Origin: Cyanobium sp. Cruz CV13-4-11
Lineage (GTDB): Bacteria; Cyanobacteriota; Cyanobacteriia; PCC-6307; Cyanobiaceae
NCBI RefSeq assembly: GCF_024346055.1
Contig: NZ_JAGQCH010000007.1
Span: forward strand, 62,001 to 126,000
Direction of reading: 5' to 3'
Length of the DNA: 64,000 bases
Below, piece after piece: positions 4,621 through 26,171 of this stretch. The notes beneath the pieces were generated by a model, which made no database searches, had not been told where the DNA came from, and worked only from the letters and a program-made list of their open reading frames with translations. The position numbers were made by a program, and so were the translations under genes. Each line of letters starts with the position of its first letter. Within the stretch, counting starts at the first letter, position 1.

Positions 4621-4692
<72 letters not shown>

Positions 4693-19040: not shown

Positions 19041-20036
19041 CTAGGCAGCAGCCGTGGGGGTCAAGTGGAACGCGGCGGCCACCAGGGCGCCCGGAGCGCC
19101 GGCGGTGGCCAGGGGGGTGCGCGCCAGCACCAGCAGCAAACAGATGCCGAAGAGGTAGAAAATCGACCAGCGGAACATGCTGCGGGCCCGGCGGGGATCG
19201 CCGGGGTCCTCAAGCAGGCTGGCGCTGAGCTGCAGCAGCCTGGCATTGAAGGGAAGCACCAGCAGGCCGTAGAGCCAGCCGCCGCTGGGCAGGGCAACCA
19301 CGCCGGCCAGACTCATGGCCACAGTCACCCAGCTATAGCGGCGGATCGCCTCGGCCGTGACCTCCAGGCCCTTCACCACCGGCAGCATCGGGATGCCCAC
19401 AGAGCGGTAATCCTCATACAGGAGCAGCGCCAGGGCCCAGAAATGGGCGGGGGTCCACACCATCACCAGAGTGAACAGCCACCAGCTGCTCCAGCCCAGG
19501 TGGCCGGTGGCGGCAGCCGCCCCCACCAGGGGGGGAATGGCTCCGGCGATGCCGCCGATGACGATGTTCTGGGTGGTGCGGGGTTTGAGCAGGGCCGTGT
19601 AGAGCAGCACGTAACTGCACAGCCCCAGCAGGGCCAGGGAGGCGGCCAGGGCGTTCACCCCCAGGACAAGCACCAGCACCGAGGCGACCGTGAGACCGAC
19701 GGCCAGGGCAAAGGCCTGCCGCTGGGCCAGCCGGCCCGACGGCAGCGCCCGGCGACTGGTCCGCTGCATGCGGCCGTCGAGTTCCTGCTCCCAGAGGCAG
19801 TTGAGGACACCGGCCGCCGCCGAGGCCATCGAGCCACCCACCAGGGTGCAGACCAGCCGCAGCGGATCCAGCGGCCAGGCGGCGGTGAGGGCCATGCCGC
19901 CCACCGTGGTCGCCAGCAGCAGCGGGATCAGCCGCGGCTTGGCCACCTCAAGCAAGGCCGGCAACTTCACCGAAGGTCGGATCGCGGCCGGCGGAGGGGA
20001 CGCGGCGATGGCCGACACGGCGCTGACACTAACCAT
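19041..20036 (-). CDS. ctaB: Protoheme IX farnesyltransferase (heme O synthase)
   Basis: UbiA-family membrane enzyme that farnesylates protoheme to heme O, the first step to heme A for cytochrome aa3 oxidase. The 331-residue product has [18 protein letters not shown], the first Asp-type motif [23 protein letters not shown], and [29 protein letters not shown], the heme O synthase signature. The start is ATG 20036, overlapping the end of ctaA by 8 bp. The frame stays open above this through ctaA, but there it is only a shadow of ctaA. Confidence 0.94.
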
Positions 20037-20982
20037 GGGCCACCTCAAGACGGGAAGGAACGGAAGGGGGTTGAAACGACAATCCCCAGAGGCCACCGAG
20101 CACTCCCACCAGCAGGGCGGCGGTGAGCTGGTGGGCCACGGTGACGGCGGGGACGGCCAGCTGGAGCCGCAGGGTGAAGACCCCGAGGGCCACCTGGACC
20201 GCCACCAGCGCGGCGGCGGCCAGGGCCAGGCCCTGGAGCCGCCGATGGCCGGACGGCAGGGCCAGGGAGCTGGCGGCCAGCAGCAGCACCGCGAAGGCCG
20301 CCGGATAGGCCCCCTGGCGGTGCAGCAGCAGCCAGCGGCAACCCTCGCCGGCCTGGACACAGAGATCGGCGGCCCAGCGGCTGGCCATGGCACCACCCAG
20401 CAGGCACTGGGTGCCGACGAGCAGGGCCGCCAGAACGGCCAAGGGGGCCCACCAGCGCGGCAGATCGCCGGCAGCCTCCGGTTCAGGAGGCTCCAGGCCC
20501 TGGTGCATGGCGCTCAGCAGCAGCACCAGGCTGAGGGCGGTGGCCAGGTGCAGGGTGACGGTGGGGGCAGCCAGCTGGCTGAGCACCGTGAGGGCCCCGA
20601 GTCCGCCTTGCACTGCCACCATCGCCAGGGCCAGACCGGAGCTCCAGGGCAGCCATCCCGGGAAGCGGGCCCGGAACCGCAGGCTGAGGGCGAAGAGGAG
20701 CAGGAGGGCGACCCCCACCAGGAAGGCGTCGAGGCGGTGGAACCACTCCAGGAACACCTGAAGGTTCCACTGGCGGCCCGGCCAGAGCACGCCATAACAC
20801 AGGGGCCAGTCCGGGCAGGCCAGGCCCGCCTCCATCACCCGGGTGGCACCGCCGATGGCCACAAGGGCCACCAGGGCGACCACGAGGTGGGCGGTGAGCA
20901 GGGGCACCAGGCGAACGACCCAACCGGCCCCGCTGGTGGACCGAGGACGGGGTAGGGGTTGCGCGGAGGGCGCCACGGCCAT
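20029..20982 (-). CDS. ctaA: Heme A synthase (COX15/CtaA)
   Basis: Membrane oxygenase that converts heme O to heme A for cytochrome c oxidase. The 317-residue protein has eight hydrophobic helices. It contains [21 protein letters not shown] (family motif with two cysteines), EWFHRLDAF with a heme-ligand histidine, [12 protein letters not shown], and a later cysteine pair in the lumenal loop ([10 protein letters not shown]). It overlaps ctaB by 8 bp. Its promoter side contains repeat copy 1, starting 40 bp upstream of the ATG. Confidence 0.94.
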
Positions 20983-21021
20983 GAATCAGGTGCTCTCTGA
21001 GAACCCAAGTTAGCGGTGATC

Positions 21022-21105
21022 GAAAGATGTGCGAATCAGCACATCGTGCGAAATGAATGTGAAATTTCTCCGAAATTGCTTTGCTGGCAACATCGAACAC
21101 ACGGC
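21022..21105. repeat. 84-bp direct repeat, copy 1 (upstream of ctaA)
   Basis: This segment matches 22248-22331 at 77 of 84 positions by hand alignment, without gaps and in the same orientation. Similarity drops sharply outside. Two inverted repeats lie inside: arms GATGTGC and GCACATC separated by GAATCA at 21026-21045, and arms AATTTC and GAAATT separated by TCC at 21063-21077. Both arms are intact in both copies. The element is AT-richer than the surrounding genome and starts 40 bp upstream of ctaA, so it looks like a promoter/operator segment. Confidence 0.85.
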
Positions 21106-21211
21106 GCCGTGCTCGGGCTTGCCTTATCGAACGCACCTTCGCCGGGGATGGACCGGCACTGGGACCGACCCCTGACCGACAGGCCAGGGGGGGGGCTCCG
21201 GTGATGCCGGG

Positions 21212-21985
21212 TCAGCGACTCGGAGGCTGGTGCCCCCCCCGATTGGAACGGGACGGCGGTAAGGCCCTTCCTGTGCCGGGCCTGCTGTGGAAGCGGCCCA
21301 GGATCAGGGCAATGAGGATGGCGATGTAGAGCTGGCCGGAAATGGTGATCACCACCGTGATCACTTGCCCGGTCACGTCGCTGCTGCGCAGCACCGCCGA
21401 TCCCACGGTGGTCAGGATCATGAACGAGGCGGCCATCAGCGCCGGCGCCATCGCCACGGCGTCAACGTTGCGATCCTGAAGCACCGGCAGGGCAGCAAGG
21501 TCGAAGGCGCCCGGATGCAGGACCCACAGGGCCACCAGCATCACCCCACCGGCGATGCCGACCAGGAGATAGCCGGAGGTGGCCCCCATCACCACGGCGA
21601 GCGTCACGAAGGGCTCCCGCACCAGGGTCTTCACCTTGCGCATCACGGCCAGCAGAAAGAACAGCAGCCAGGCGATCACATGCGGCACCGTGATGAGGCG
21701 CCCCAGCGGTGGATCGAAGGCCAGGGCCAGATGCCACACCCCCTCCAGGGCGAGCGCCAGGCCACCGAAGCCGTACACCAATGGCCGGGTGCTGATCAGG
21801 GGTGAGTACCGCGTCACCGTGGTGATCAACACCACCGCCAGGCTGGTCAGTAGCAGGGAGAGCAGCCAGACCTGCGACTGACAGAACGGCAGCGCCAGGA
21901 TCAGCAGGACCTCGGTGGCGAGGGTGAGGATGTAGCCGCGATGGCGGTGGCGGAGCCTCTGGATCTGCTCATGGGTGAAGGGCAT
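21212..21985 (-). CDS. Ion channel-like membrane protein with degenerate selectivity filter
   Basis: A 257-residue membrane protein with about six or seven hydrophobic segments from ATG 21985. The C-terminal part has the layout of a two-helix K+ channel pore: ASFMILTTVGSAVLRSSDVTG, where TTVGYGD would be expected, followed by the inner-helix-like SGQLYIAILIALILGRF. The GYG filter is missing, so K+ selectivity is doubtful. The tail is basic and Pro/Ser/Gly rich. The gene lies between ctaA and ctaC, two genes normally next to each other, and is bracketed by the 84-bp repeats. An in-frame start near 22030 is possible. Confidence 0.7.
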   Translation of the reverse strand: MPFTHEQIQRLRHRHRGYILTLATEVLLILALPFCQSQVWLLSLLLTSLAVVLITTVTRYSPLISTRPLVYGFGGLALALEGVWHLALAFDPPLGRLITVPHVIAWLLFFLLAVMRKVKTLVREPFVTLAVVMGATSGYLLVGIAGGVMLVALWVLHPGAFDLAALPVLQDRNVDAVAMAPALMAASFMILTTVGSAVLRSSDVTGQVITVVITISGQLYIAILIALILGRFHSRPGTGRALPPSRSNRGGHQPPSR

Positions 21986-22247
21986 GGCGGCTCCGCTCAA
22001 GGGCGGCTCGGGGTGTGAGGCACCTCGCAATCAAAGGATCCCGGCAACCGATCGCCCACAGCTGGGCGAGGGTGCGGATCATGGTTGCCGTGGCTTCAGC
22101 CGCTGCCCAGGGCTGAAGGCGGAATGACGCCACAGGAACGCTGGTGGCACGGACGGGGGCCAACGGCGCCGGCAGGGCAGCGGGGGAGGTGCCCATGGAC
22201 GGGGGCTTTGGCGGTGGCCTTGAGGGGCAAGGAAGTTTGGAGGCATT
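21986..22247. other. Non-coding gap upstream of the channel-like gene
   Basis: Together with repeat copy 2 and the ctaC leader this makes about 420 bp without a supported gene. I see no tRNA, convincing ORF or clear hairpin in this part. It probably carries the promoter of the minus-strand channel-like gene. Confidence 0.5.
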
Positions 22248-22331
22248 GAAAGATGTGCGAATCAGCACATCGCGCGAACTGAATGTGAAATTTCTCCGAA
22301 ATTGCTTTTCTGGCTACAACAAACGCACGGC
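22248..22331. repeat. 84-bp direct repeat, copy 2 (upstream of ctaC)
   Basis: Second copy of the element at 21022-21105, in the same orientation with seven substitutions. The two inverted repeats are conserved at 22252-22271 and 22289-22303. It ends 75 bp before the ctaC start and also lies about 260 bp upstream of the minus-strand channel-like gene. Retention of both palindromes argues for a protein-binding or promoter role. Confidence 0.85.
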
Positions 22332-22406
22332 CCGCGAACGGCCTTCCATAAGCTGTTGAGGCCAGGGCCCTCCCACCCTCCCGACAGCCGTCCCGCAGCC
22401 GCCGCC

Positions 22407-23306
22407 GTGCCGATTCCCTCCTCCCTGGTCACCCTCCTGGTGGGCATGGCTCTCGTCCTGTCCGGCCTCTGGGTGGGCTACAACGTCAACCTCCTGCCCC
22501 TCGACGCCAGCGTCAACGCACCTGTCTACGACTCGTTGTTCCGGGTGCTGTTCAGCATCGGCACGATCCTGTTCCTGGGCATCGTGGGTCTGGTGGTGTT
22601 CAGCCTGGTACGGTTCCGCCGGCGGGCCGGCGACCACACCGACGGGCTGGCCATCGAGGGGAACCTGCTGCTGGAGATCGTCTGGACGGCGATCCCCGCC
22701 ATCGTGGTGCTGTTCGTGGGCATCTACAGCTACGACATCTACGAGCGGATGGGTGGCATGAGCAGCCTCAACGACCATTCCGCCATGCACCGGATGCCAG
22801 CGATGGAAACCATGGAGGCCTCCGTCAGCACGGCCGGTGCTGGAGCTGACCCCATGGCAGGCACCGCTCTGAAGGCCCCCCGCGTCTGGGGGGGCATCGG
22901 CACCGGTGGCGGCGAAACCAATGTCCTGCCGGTGGAGGTGACGGCCATGCAATTCGCGTTCATCTTCCACTACCCGGAAGGGGACATCACCAGCGGCGAG
23001 CTGCACGTGCCCAATGGCCGGCCGGTGGAGCTGCGCATGAAGGCCAACGACGTGATCCACGCCTTCTGGGTACCCCAGTTCCGGCTCAAGCAGGACGTGA
23101 TCCCCGGCCAGCCCACCGTGCTCACCTTCACCCCCACCAAGGCGGGCAGTTACCCGATCATCTGCGCCGAACTCTGTGGTCCGTACCACGGCGGCATGCG
23201 CTCCACCGTGGTGGTGCACGAGCCGGATGCCTACGACGCCTGGCTGCGGAAGAACAGTCCCGTGACGGCCACGGTCGCCAGCGCCCCGAGCACCCCCACC
23301 GCCTGA
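22407..23306 (+). CDS. ctaC: Cytochrome c oxidase subunit II
   Basis: Electron-entry subunit of aa3-type cytochrome c oxidase. Two N-terminal membrane helices (about residues 6-25 and 45-70) precede a cupredoxin domain. The CuA site is complete: an upstream His in NDVIHAFWVPQFRLKQD, then CAELCGPYHGGM with both Cys, Glu, His and Met. The 299-residue start is GTG 22407; an upstream TTG at 22302 lies inside repeat copy 2 and is unlikely. A Met/Gly-rich insert between helix 2 and the cupredoxin domain is long. ctaD follows after 47 bp. Confidence 0.94.
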   Translation: MPIPSSLVTLLVGMALVLSGLWVGYNVNLLPLDASVNAPVYDSLFRVLFSIGTILFLGIVGLVVFSLVRFRRRAGDHTDGLAIEGNLLLEIVWTAIPAIVVLFVGIYSYDIYERMGGMSSLNDHSAMHRMPAMETMEASVSTAGAGADPMAGTALKAPRVWGGIGTGGGETNVLPVEVTAMQFAFIFHYPEGDITSGELHVPNGRPVELRMKANDVIHAFWVPQFRLKQDVIPGQPTVLTFTPTKAGSYPIICAELCGPYHGGMRSTVVVHEPDAYDAWLRKNSPVTATVASAPSTPTA

Positions 23307-23353: not shown

Positions 23354-25021
23354 ATGACCGTCGCTTCCCCCAACGACTTCCAGGACAGCCTCCAGCCCCA
23401 GGGCTGGCTGCGCTACTTCAGCTTCAGCCTCGACCACAAGGTGATCGGCATCCAATATCTGGTGACCGGCTTCATTTTCTATTTCATCGGTGGTGCCCTG
23501 GCCGGGGTGATCCGGGCCGAGCTGGCCAGCCCGATCTCCGATTTTGTCAGCCGCGAAACCTACAACGAAGTTCTCACGCTGCACGGCACCGTGATGATCT
23601 TCCTGTGGATCGTGCCTGTGGTGAATGGTGGTTTCGGCAATTACCTGATTCCCTTCTATGTGGGTGCCAGGGACATGGCCTTCCCCAGGCTGAACGCTGT
23701 GGCCTTCTGGATGATTCCACCGGCCGGGATTCTGCTGATCGGCAGCTATTTCATCACCGGAGCCGCCCAGTCCGGCTGGACCGCCTACCCACCCCTTAGC
23801 ATCACCACCCCGGCCCTGGGGCAGGTGGTCTGGATCGTGAGCGTGCTGCTGCTGGGGGGCAGCTCCATCTTCGGTGGCATCAACTTCATCGCCACCGTGC
23901 TCAAGCTGCGGCGACCGGGGCTGAAGCTGATGCAGCTGCCGATGTACTGCTGGGCGATGCTCGGCACCAGTATCCTGGTGGTGCTATCCACCCCCGTGCT
24001 GGCCGGCACCCTGCTGCTGCTCAGCTTCGACATCGTCGCCCACACGGGCTTCTTCAACCCGGCCCTGGGCGGCAACGTGGTGGTCTACCAGCACCTCTTC
24101 TGGTTCTATTCCCACCCGGCGGTGTACATCATGGTGCTGCCGGCCTTCGGCCTGGTGAGCGAAATTCTGCCCATCCACGCCCGCAAGCCCCTGTTCGGCT
24201 ACACCACGATGGTGTACTCAATCATGGCCATCGTTGTGCTGGGTCTGGTGGTCTGGGCCCACCATATGTTCACCAGCGGCACGCCCCCCTGGATGCGCCT
24301 GTTCTTCACGATCGCCACCTCGTTCATCGCCGTGCCGACCGGCATCAAGTTCTTCAACTGGCTGGCCACCCTCTGGGGTGGGAAGCTGGCCCTGAACAGC
24401 GCCATGCTGTTTTCCTGCGCCTTCATCGTCAATTTCGTGTTCGGTGGGATCACCGGCGTGGCCCTGGCCCAGGTTCCCTTCGACATCCACGTGCATGACA
24501 CCTATTTCGTGGTTGGTCACTTCCACTACATCGTCTATGGCGGCACGGTGTTCGTGATCTTCGCCTCCATTTATCACTGGTATCCGAAGTTCACCGGCCG
24601 GATGCTGAATGAGGATCTGGGCCGCCTGCATTTTCTGCTCACCTTCGTGGGCTTCAACCTCTGCTTCGCCCCCCAGCACTGGCTCGGTCTGAACGGCATG
24701 CCCCGCCGGGTGGCTGAATACGACCCCAGCTTCACCACCCTCAACCAGATCAGCAGTGTGGGGGCCCTGCTGATGGCCATCAGCAGCCTGCCCTTCCTCT
24801 ACAACGTGCTGGTGAGCGCCTTCCGGGGCCAGGTGGCTGGCGACAACCCCTGGAACGCCCTCACCCCTGAGTGGCTCACCTCCTCGCCGCCACCGGTGGA
24901 GAACTGGGTCGGTGCAGCGCCGCTGGTGGAACACCCTTACGGTTATGGCGTTGACGAAGACACCCTCAGCCTGGAGGCCGCCACCGGCAGGGACCTCTGG
25001 AGCGGCACCGGTCGCCGCTGA
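23354..25021 (+). CDS. ctaD: Cytochrome c oxidase subunit I
   Basis: Catalytic subunit with heme a and the heme a3/CuB oxygen-reducing centre. The 555-residue protein has about twelve membrane helices. The low-spin heme His lies in LHGTVMIFLW. The CuB His/Tyr pair lies in WFYSHPAVYIMVLPAFG, and the two further CuB histidines in VWAHHMFTSG. The heme a/a3 ligands lie in DTYFVVGHFHYI. It is second in the ctaC-ctaD-ctaE operon. The subunit would sit in thylakoid or plasma membrane for respiration. Confidence 0.97.
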   Translation: MTVASPNDFQDSLQPQGWLRYFSFSLDHKVIGIQYLVTGFIFYFIGGALAGVIRAELASPISDFVSRETYNEVLTLHGTVMIFLWIVPVVNGGFGNYLIPFYVGARDMAFPRLNAVAFWMIPPAGILLIGSYFITGAAQSGWTAYPPLSITTPALGQVVWIVSVLLLGGSSIFGGINFIATVLKLRRPGLKLMQLPMYCWAMLGTSILVVLSTPVLAGTLLLLSFDIVAHTGFFNPALGGNVVVYQHLFWFYSHPAVYIMVLPAFGLVSEILPIHARKPLFGYTTMVYSIMAIVVLGLVVWAHHMFTSGTPPWMRLFFTIATSFIAVPTGIKFFNWLATLWGGKLALNSAMLFSCAFIVNFVFGGITGVALAQVPFDIHVHDTYFVVGHFHYIVYGGTVFVIFASIYHWYPKFTGRMLNEDLGRLHFLLTFVGFNLCFAPQHWLGLNGMPRRVAEYDPSFTTLNQISSVGALLMAISSLPFLYNVLVSAFRGQVAGDNPWNALTPEWLTSSPPPVENWVGAAPLVEHPYGYGVDEDTLSLEAATGRDLWSGTGRR

Positions 25022-25069: not shown

Positions 25070-25672
25070 ATGACCAGCCTCGCCACCAGCACCAGCGCCG
25101 TCGAAGCGGTCACCGACGAGGCCCACGGGGGCCATGCGGATCTGAGGCTTTTCGGCCTGGCCACCTTTCTGGTGGCCGACGGCATGACCTTCGCGGGCTT
25201 CTTCGCCGCCTATCTCACCTTCCGGGCGGTCAATCCCCTGCCGGCGGGCTCCACCTATGAGCTGGAACTGCTGCTGCCATCGATCAACACCATGCTGCTG
25301 CTGGTGAGCAGCTACACCTTCCACCGCTCCGGCCGCAATCTGCTGCTGGGTCGGATGGGGCCCTGCCGCAACTGGCTGCTGCTCACCGCTGGCCTCGGAG
25401 CCGCCTTCCTGGCCGGGCAGATGGTGGAGTACTTCACCCTGCCCTTCGGCCTCACCGACAACCTCTTCGCCAGCACCTTCTATGCCCTGACGGGCTTTCA
25501 CGGGCTGCACGTCACCCTCGGGGTGATCTGCATCCTCCTGGTCTGGTTCCAGACCCGCAACGGCGGTCGCGTCACCAGCGCCGCGCCCTTCGGACTGGAG
25601 GCCGCCGAGCTCTACTGGCACTTCGTCGACGGCATCTGGGTGGTCCTATACGGGATTCTTTACCTGCTCTGA
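25070..25672 (+). CDS. ctaE: Cytochrome c oxidase subunit III
   Basis: Third core subunit of the oxidase: 200 residues with five hydrophobic helices, the short bacterial/cyanobacterial form that lacks the first two helices of the mitochondrial protein. Visible family segments are FLVADGMTFAGFFAAYLTFRA, ALTGFHGLHVTLGVICIL and a C-terminal LYWHFVDGIWVVLYGILYL. It lies 48 bp after ctaD. The operon probably ends here, as the next gene is 121 bp away. Confidence 0.95.
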   Translation: MTSLATSTSAVEAVTDEAHGGHADLRLFGLATFLVADGMTFAGFFAAYLTFRAVNPLPAGSTYELELLLPSINTMLLLVSSYTFHRSGRNLLLGRMGPCRNWLLLTAGLGAAFLAGQMVEYFTLPFGLTDNLFASTFYALTGFHGLHVTLGVICILLVWFQTRNGGRVTSAAPFGLEAAELYWHFVDGIWVVLYGILYLL

Positions 25673-25793
25673 TTCCCTGACTGTTGCCTATTCAGCACAA
25701 CGATCGGCACAATCAATTCAGAAGTCTGCGTCTAACCGGCTGATGGGTGCCCAGAAAGGACCAGCCAATGAGGACAACACAGGCGGAACCGTG

Positions 25794-26171
25794 ATGCTGG
25801 AGGGCCAGGCGTTGCTGGAGAGGGCCCGTTCGCTCAGCAACCGGCCGGAGGACCAGATCGCCCGGGCCTGCGGCTATGTGGGTCCGAGCGGCAGGGTGCT
25901 CAAGAAGAATTTCTACCGAGCCCTGGTGGCGGCCAAGGGCTACACCCTGCCCTCGGGTAGCACCGGCGGCAGCGGTACCAGTGGCGTCGGGAAGGGACGT
26001 CAGGCCGAATTTCGCACCCGCGTGCACGGCAACGGCAACCTGCTGATCGGCCAGGCCTATACCCGGCGCATGGGGCTGGAACCGGGTCAGGAGTTCAGAA
26101 TCGAGATCCACAAGGAAACCGGTTCGATCTGGCTGCTGCCCCTCGATGGCGCCGGCGACGCCCTCTCCTGA
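25794..26171 (+). CDS. cyAbrB-type transcriptional regulator
   Basis: A 125-residue DNA-binding protein of the cyanobacterial AbrB type. The N-terminal part (LEGQALLERARSLSNRPEDQIARACGYV...FYRALVAAKGY) matches the cyAbrB-specific domain. The C-terminal RVHGNGNLLIGQAYTRRMGLEPGQEFRIEI is the AbrB-like swapped-hairpin region. cyAbrBs are global regulators of carbon/nitrogen status. ATG 25794 or the adjacent GTG 25791 fit the family N-terminus. Position just after the oxidase operon suggests, without proving, a regulatory link. Confidence 0.85.
   Translation: MLEGQALLERARSLSNRPEDQIARACGYVGPSGRVLKKNFYRALVAAKGYTLPSGSTGGSGTSGVGKGRQAEFRTRVHGNGNLLIGQAYTRRMGLEPGQEFRIEIHKETGSIWLLPLDGAGDALS

Follow-up and report, generated by a model that had tools for sequence, protein, structure and literature searches.

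Direct repeats around a channel-like gene between ctaA and ctaC in Cyanobium: a probable duplicated control region with complementary decay

In Cyanobium sp. Cruz CV13-4-11 the minus-strand genes ctaB-ctaA and the plus-strand genes ctaC-ctaD-ctaE are separated by one recognised gene, and a nearly identical sequence stands on either side of that gene. We asked where this repeat comes from and why both copies are still there. The window analysed is a stretch of 64,000 nucleotides (contig NZ_JAGQCH010000007.1, positions 62,001 to 126,000), and all coordinates refer to it. The oxidase genes are ctaA (heme A synthase, 20029–20982, minus strand; Pfam COX15-CtaA, E 1.2e-30), ctaC (cytochrome c oxidase subunit II, 22407–23306, plus; CoxB TIGR02866 over cut-off, and COX2), ctaD (subunit I, 23354–25021, plus; COX1, E 3.3e-159) and ctaE (subunit III, 25070–25672, plus; COX3, E 3.6e-26), so that Pfam or NCBIfam bears out the names that the first-pass annotation had given to ctaA and ctaC. 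Translation of ctaC probably starts at the GTG at 22407 rather than at the first TTG of the ORF (22302), because distant relatives align only from about residue 30–40; several close relatives align to the ORF from residue 1, and the frame stays open upstream in them. Directly 3' of ctaCDE, on the same strand, lies a gene for an AbrB-like transcriptional regulator (25743–26171; Pfam AbrB-like, E 8.7e-24), which could act as a local regulator of the oxidase genes. At gathering thresholds the sole Rfam match in the whole window was a tRNA (4621–4692), with none at the repeat element.

The repeat had been described as 84 bp long, and this was reproduced: 21022–21105 and 22248–22331 are identical at 77 of 84 positions, ungapped and in the same orientation. 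A 99-nt version, made up of the left, ctaA-side copy (21007–21105) and the right, ctaC-side copy (22233–22331), is 87% identical; the copies are spaced 1226 bp from start to start and enclose the single recognised gene (21212–21985, minus strand). Both inverted repeats claimed for each copy were found in each: the palindrome GATGTGC-N6-GCACATC (21026–21045 and 22252–22271) and AATTTC-TCC-GAAATT (21063–21077 and 22289–22303). The latter lies within the second conserved block (see below), and its palindromy is not kept in more distant members of the genus. When the whole genome was searched by BLAST with the 99-nt left copy, the right copy was recovered at E 6.4e-29 and the next match came at E 1.9 (5 of 5 candidates scored), so that there is no third copy of the element in this genome.

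To place these copies we turned to relatives. A ctaC match was obtained in all 42 genomes of the genus survey, and the stretch upstream of it was compared in each. The order ctaA, copy, channel-like gene, copy, ctaC occurs in 12 of the 42 (G000, G198, G257, G235, G175, G304, G148, G217, G090, G132, G286 and G330). Five further genomes, all close relatives (G005, G208, G113, G226 and G274), have one copy and no channel-like gene, and this single copy carries both of the −10-like blocks described below. The single-copy, gene-less arrangement that the first-pass annotation predicted for the ctaA–ctaC interval of relatives therefore exists in 5 of the 17 element-bearing genomes. Anywhere in these five, the best match to the channel-like protein has an E value of 3e-19 to 5e-15 at 32–36% identity, and they thus hold no orthologue. 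Two outcomes that had been named in advance as contrary to a duplication were not encountered: none of the 12 two-copy genomes lacks the gene, of which G090 has broken remains, and there are exactly two copies in the 12 and exactly one in the five, all candidates having been scored. In G090 (locus L104) the channel-like gene is in two pieces with both flanking copies kept, which is decay in place and a second route of gene loss.

Further out, the arrangement without the gene prevails. In all other 25 genus genomes the channel-like gene is absent from the fetched stretch upstream of ctaC; ctaA was recognised in 20 of them (all except G298, G355, G364, G367 and G325), and 15 of the 25 have a recognisable palindrome (no more than 5 mismatches to the window's 20-mer). 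We also inspected named loci, taking the best 80 of 479 CtaA relatives; ctaC was not found in 4, and among the 76 with both genes, 68 lack the channel-like gene (ctaA–ctaC gap 104–341 bp) and 8 carry it (gap 1143–1510 bp). Outside the genus, 400 genomes of the family gave only weak matches to the element (E > 0.004). A record titled as a Bifidobacterium breve MAG (L260, CALPNT020000005.1) holds a cyanobacterial ctaA and ctaC with the genus-type palindrome; its title looks wrong.

What has been kept in each copy was read from block conservation, calculated as the mean pairwise identity over the 12 two-copy genomes with positions counted from the start of the palindrome. The two copies share a conserved core, namely the palindrome itself (left 99%, right 95%) and a second block at +32 to +56 (TGTGAAATTTCTCCGAAATTGCTTT; the TGTGAAATTT block; left 92%, right 90%), with the intervening +20 to +31 at 81% and 71%. 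Outside the core they go opposite ways. The block at −19 to −11, which faces ctaA, is 100% identical among left copies and 49% among right copies, while conservation toward ctaC rises on the right and falls on the left: 81% (left) and 94% (right) at +61 to +74, 46% and 94% at +84 to +95, and 37% and 81% at +96 to +111. The +61 to +74 block reads GCTACAACAAACGC in the window's right copy and GCAACATCGAACAC in its left. For scale, identity at fourfold-degenerate sites is 75% in ctaA (12 genomes), 75% in ctaC (11 genomes) and 82% in the channel-like gene (10 genomes). Of the two −10-like blocks each copy thus retains the one next to its own gene, and the core is retained in both.

In the window, the ctaA-facing block (21007–21015) is invariant in the 12 left copies and decayed in right copies; it contains a putative −10 hexamer TAACTT, read on the minus strand (21007–21012). 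Its counterpart is a putative ctaC −10 hexamer TAAGCT (22349–22354, plus strand), in a block kept in right copies and also in single copies and decayed in left copies. Both hexamers were read by eye as TAnnnT-type elements and are predicted only. In every one of the 15 distant genus genomes with a recognisable palindrome, the ctaA −10-like block stands at offset −19 from it, and this geometry therefore predates the duplication; the ctaA start is 43–49 nt away from the palindrome in two-copy and 44–45 nt in single-copy genomes. With this spacing the palindrome would overlap the ctaA −35 position, which would suit a repressor or an activator that replaces the −35 contact, and it would lie about 88 bp upstream of the putative ctaC −10.

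The pattern points to a putative divergent promoter region that was duplicated and whose copies then decayed in complementary ways. We envisage an ancestral state in which ctaA and ctaC(DE) stood back to back over about 200 bp, with two promoters and a control core common to both. A duplication of nearly the whole region, in some ancestor of the group, would have left two copies in the same orientation on either side of a K+-channel-derived gene. Thereafter the core would have stayed in both copies, while the ctaC −10 decayed on the ctaA side and the ctaA −10 on the ctaC side, so that each copy retained only the −10 of its adjacent gene. Homologous recombination between the near-identical direct repeats could later delete the gene together with one copy and leave a working single-copy region. 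We regard this explanation as a whole, including removal of the gene by way of the repeats, as probable. The proposal of the first-pass annotation that a bidirectional oxidase control element was duplicated when the channel-like gene arrived is supported by the single-copy relatives and by block conservation. Its further phrase, that both operons kept their operator, fits as well, in the sense that the shared core was kept twice and each copy retains only its own gene's −10-like block. Conservation of the core in both copies suggests that each operon needs it, presumably as an operator bound by a regulator; since the core lies at the ancestral distance for each operon, both probably need the same regulator at the palindrome.

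The duplicated piece was probably longer than what is now recognisable. In this genome similarity ends near 21007/22233 and 21105/22331, sharply, as had been noted, and these are probably not the original boundaries, as a longer in-register similarity is seen in G304. There the left and right copies resemble each other over about 195 bp, nearly the whole ctaA–ctaC intergenic region; the left extension (−57 to −14 from palindrome start) is in register with 6 of 1000 shuffles as good, and the right extension (+80 to +139), likewise in register, with 1 of 1000, out of 24 such shuffle tests in all. For the left extension some signal, not fully in register, was found in G132 (12/1000), G198 (19/1000) and G257 (31/1000), and in the remaining genomes at least 58 of 1000 shuffles were as good; for the right extension the next best after G304 was G217 (52/1000). 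Apart from G304, extension past about 99 nt is weak or absent in most genomes, and in some other genomes ctaA-side and ctaC-side profiles align beyond the present ends. A search for a relic of ctaA coding sequence left of the right copy (Smith-Waterman against dinucleotide shuffles) was suggestive in G132 (1/200), G304 (9/200) and G257 (14/200) and not suggestive in the other 9 of the 12 two-copy genomes. The duplicated unit was thus probably a stretch of about 195 bp, a figure resting mainly on one genome, the MAG G304, that covered almost all of the intergenic region together with the start codon of ctaA, rather than an 84-bp element, and the present ends probably mark the limits of what selection (or conversion) preserved. 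The longest exact runs shared by left and right copies are 15–57 bp per genome; the run of 57 bp belongs to G175 (L098), the other 11 genomes having 15–31 bp, which suggests recent gene conversion between the copies in G175.

Trees were built from the 17 close genomes with one of the 25 other genus members as outgroup (three in one run), using marker sets that overlap (ctaA, ctaA+ctaC, rpoB+nadE and rpoB). On all four of these overlapping sets three single-copy genomes (G005, and G208 with G113) are nested inside the two-copy group. A single clade of the 12 two-copy genomes was rejected by the AU test (p = 1.4e-5 for ctaA, 1.4e-6 for ctaA+ctaC, 3e-69 for rpoB+nadE and 0.009 for rpoB), as was a clade of G005, G208 and G113, a group chosen after the first trees (p = 0.022, 0.016, 0.0005 and 0.041 in the same order). 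The copy state has therefore changed several times within the group; most simply, there was a single gain, followed by two or more clean losses through recombination of one repeat with the other. The remaining single-copy genomes, G226 and G274, fall outside on ctaA (support 88/96, not starred), ctaA+ctaC and rpoB, and inside, beside G304, on the nadE tree; rpoB+nadE leaves their placement unsettled (AU 0.32 for keeping both outside). The case for a single-copy ancestor comes from ctaA, ctaA+ctaC, rpoB and the distant genus members, and not from nadE.

The gene between the copies has a history that is partly its own. Its DNA identity is 89–94% in 17 of 18 compared pairs (66 possible), the exception being G175–G235 at 98.8%. 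This is so for pairs with similar flanks as well as for pairs with dissimilar ones. Between G175 and G217 identity is 97.3% left of ctaA, 91.6% in ctaA, 94.3% in ctaC and 91.1% in the channel-like gene; between G217 and G257 the same four values are 88.9%, 85.9%, 90.0% and 91.2%. At silent sites, compared across 36 pairs from 9 genomes, the gene is more alike than ctaA in 33 pairs, than ctaC in 28, than nadE in 15 and than rpoB in 5. The gene tree and the ctaA tree are in conflict (AU 0.037 and 0.008, for groups chosen after the trees). Taken together, the near-constant identity, the silent-site excess over ctaA and ctaC and the tree conflict make it likely that the interior has been exchanged between species to some extent. 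Since the gene tree disagrees with the ctaA tree, the nested single-copy genomes need not be losses, and gains by transfer and losses are indistinguishable in these data. The earlier idea of a duplication holds up with additions: the element was copied, as a unit probably longer than 84 bp, in an event that is reversible or with a gene that spreads. The channel-like gene may also move as a cassette. A speculative extension, to which we lend little credence, is that the region serves as a transposase-free docking site, the gene and one copy leaving as a circle and entering a single-copy region elsewhere in a Campbell-type manner. If so, both oxidase operons would always be left with a complete control region, and the gene would be a regulation-neutral mobile cassette with a host promoter region as its attachment site.

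The gene itself (21212–21985, minus strand) is predicted to encode a membrane protein of 257 aa. It has no match in Pfam or NCBIfam at E 0.001 (with E up to 10, Pfam returned only DUF5654 at 0.089), and a sequence search of solved structures (PDB) gave no match up to E 10. Relatives at 28–32% identity have a GYGD (L059, L060, L062) or GLGD (L063) filter, and L059 and L060 score in an Ion_trans_2 scan, which the nearer relatives L046 and L048 do not. At the aligned place the window protein has TTVGSAV and no TxGYGD-type selectivity filter; its subfamily reads TTVGSAV, TSVGSAV, TTVGTAV or TSVGSEV there, and relatives at 39–51% identity are likewise without GYGD. Together with L046–L054 the window protein makes up a genus subfamily of K+-channel-derived proteins in which GYGD is replaced by VGSAV, VGGGL, VSNTV and similar. 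An AlphaFold2 model (pLDDT 80.9) aligns over residues ~124–235 with Kir, HCN and plant K+ channels at Z 8–9.6, a range to be read with care: below Z 13, alignments of helical models may be unspecific, and on residues 1–124 of the same model unrelated helical bundles score up to Z 8.9; Foldseek E values exceed 0.05. Compared with known Ion_trans_2 channels, the pore module of the model aligns with Kir2.2 (rmsd 2.5–2.6 over 95–100 residues, Z 8.4–8.6), while the window protein, unlike these, has a VGSAV filter and no Pfam match over cut-off. From this we infer that the gene descends from K+ channels and has lost the selectivity-filter motif. Ten of the 12 gene copies (not G090 and G286) give a near full-length match with no in-frame stop, and among these ten, identity is 94% at codon positions 1+2 versus 82% at fourfold sites, which indicates present or past selection on the protein. 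No leftward −10 remains in the copy upstream of the gene, and the gene therefore probably has its own promoter and is not simply controlled with the oxidase. Relatives of its product at 51–54% identity sit at other locations in five genomes, and no consistent neighbour that might link the gene's relatives to a second oxidase was seen in the six stretches inspected by their ORFs.

Could the two copies be alike for reasons other than need? Gene conversion might mainly keep them alike, and there are signs of it: left–right identity within a genome slightly exceeds that across genomes (87.5 versus 86.5, permutation P 0.018), G175 has its 57-bp exact run, and by eye clade-specific states beside the palindrome are common to both copies. 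Suggested conversion of this kind means that likeness of the core is not due to selection alone. As the whole story we consider it rather unlikely, since conversion alone does not account for interspecies conservation of the core (92–99% left, 90–95% right, against ~75% at silent sites) and leaves the decay of the flanking −10-like blocks in opposite copies unexplained. Alternatively, the left copy may owe its survival to its ctaC-facing half, if transcription antisense to the channel-like gene still starts there. Left copies do keep the TGTGAAATTT block at 92%, and most keep GGCTACAAC, including a second possible −10 (TACAAC); this proposal nevertheless fares poorly, as the +61 to +74 block is less conserved on the left than on the right, with GCAACATCGAACAC replacing GCTACAACAAACGC in the window, and the −10-like block near +97 is lost from left copies. 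We think it improbable.

The other two rivals concern the gene. Direct repeats around an accessory gene that only some relatives possess might point to transposition: the gene would have come with an insertion element or an integron-like cassette, and the repeats would be the ends of that element or a target-site duplication. Here the repeat is the pre-existing ctaA–ctaC region, single in gene-less relatives, and present in exactly two copies in every two-copy genome; its length of ~99–195 bp is far above the target duplications of known insertion sequences, which are far shorter. The repeats are thus neither element ends nor a short target duplication. No relative of the channel-like gene was confirmed in viral contigs and the locus had no megablast match in plasmids; the family scan of ORFs between the copies covered the channel-like ORF alone. 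This origin is, in our judgement, the least credible of those considered. Scarcely more plausible is that the gene is ancestral at this place to the whole genus and that every single-copy genome lost it by recombination between repeats: some nested single-copy genomes (G005; G208 and G113) do look like losses, and against this stand the absence of the gene upstream of ctaC in the 25 remaining genus genomes (20 of them with a recognised ctaA) and in 68 of 76 of the named loci (from the best 80 of 479), as well as the location elsewhere, in five genomes, of the relatives at 51–54% identity.

If both operons depend on the palindrome, a regulator should recognise it. Exact GATGnGC-N6-GCACATC occurs solely at the cta locus in 10 of 10 genomes searched, and in these ten genomes one-mismatch palindromes away from the locus number 24, versus 9 for a reversed-pattern control. 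The exact palindrome therefore looks dedicated to the oxidase, and there may be a wider regulon of weaker sites. As an RNA hairpin the palindrome is disfavoured, because in most of the distant members with the palindrome its arms are GATGAGC and GCACATC, so that one base pair would be lost. CRP/FNR-type operators have a TGTGA-N6-TCACA-like dyad as consensus; the TGTGC-N6-GCACA of the palindrome has the same geometry with another base. Upstream of ctaA in other Synechococcus records we noticed a dyad, GGTGAGGG-TT-CCCTCACC, perfect in L244 and L247 and imperfect in L219, which is perhaps a diverged form of the same operator. In Synechococcus elongatus PCC 7942 the same two oxidase operons, ctaAB and ctaCDE, are listed in a table of the review PMC13421787 as targets of one regulator, RpaA; that is another genus, and RpaA at the palindrome is only a candidate here.

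Among the titles and abstract openings listed by literature searches there was no description of this duplication of the ctaA–ctaC control region. Its use may lie in three directions. Nature has in effect dissected the promoters: when the two copies are compared across species, the need for an operon's own −10 can be separated from that for the seemingly shared core. The search for the oxidase regulator is narrowed to a 20-bp site whose exact form occurs at the cta locus only (10 genomes searched). Finally, the arrangement offers a route for inserting and removing a gene between divergent operons while each keeps its control region.

Two known processes come close. Homologous recombination between direct repeats deletes the intervening gene and leaves one repeat and no scar. 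The loss proposed here is alike in that one repeat remains and the junction is scarless; it differs in that the remaining repeat would regulate both flanking operons and be functional after the deletion. The other is subfunctionalisation under the duplication-degeneration-complementation (DDC) model, in the outline given in PMC2213666. The likeness is that a two-function unit is duplicated, each copy loses one function and the pair equals the ancestor: a single unit with both −10-like blocks, as expected of the ancestor, is seen in the five close genomes, the distant members with ctaA being gene-less, and sub-elements have been lost in complementary fashion (ctaA −10, left 100%, right 49%; ctaC −10, left 37%, right 81%), each copy being predicted to perform one ancestral function. 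The differences lie in the unit, a bacterial region of divergent promoters that includes no gene itself, in the accessory gene that splits its copies, and in a state that looks reversible by recombination between the copies.
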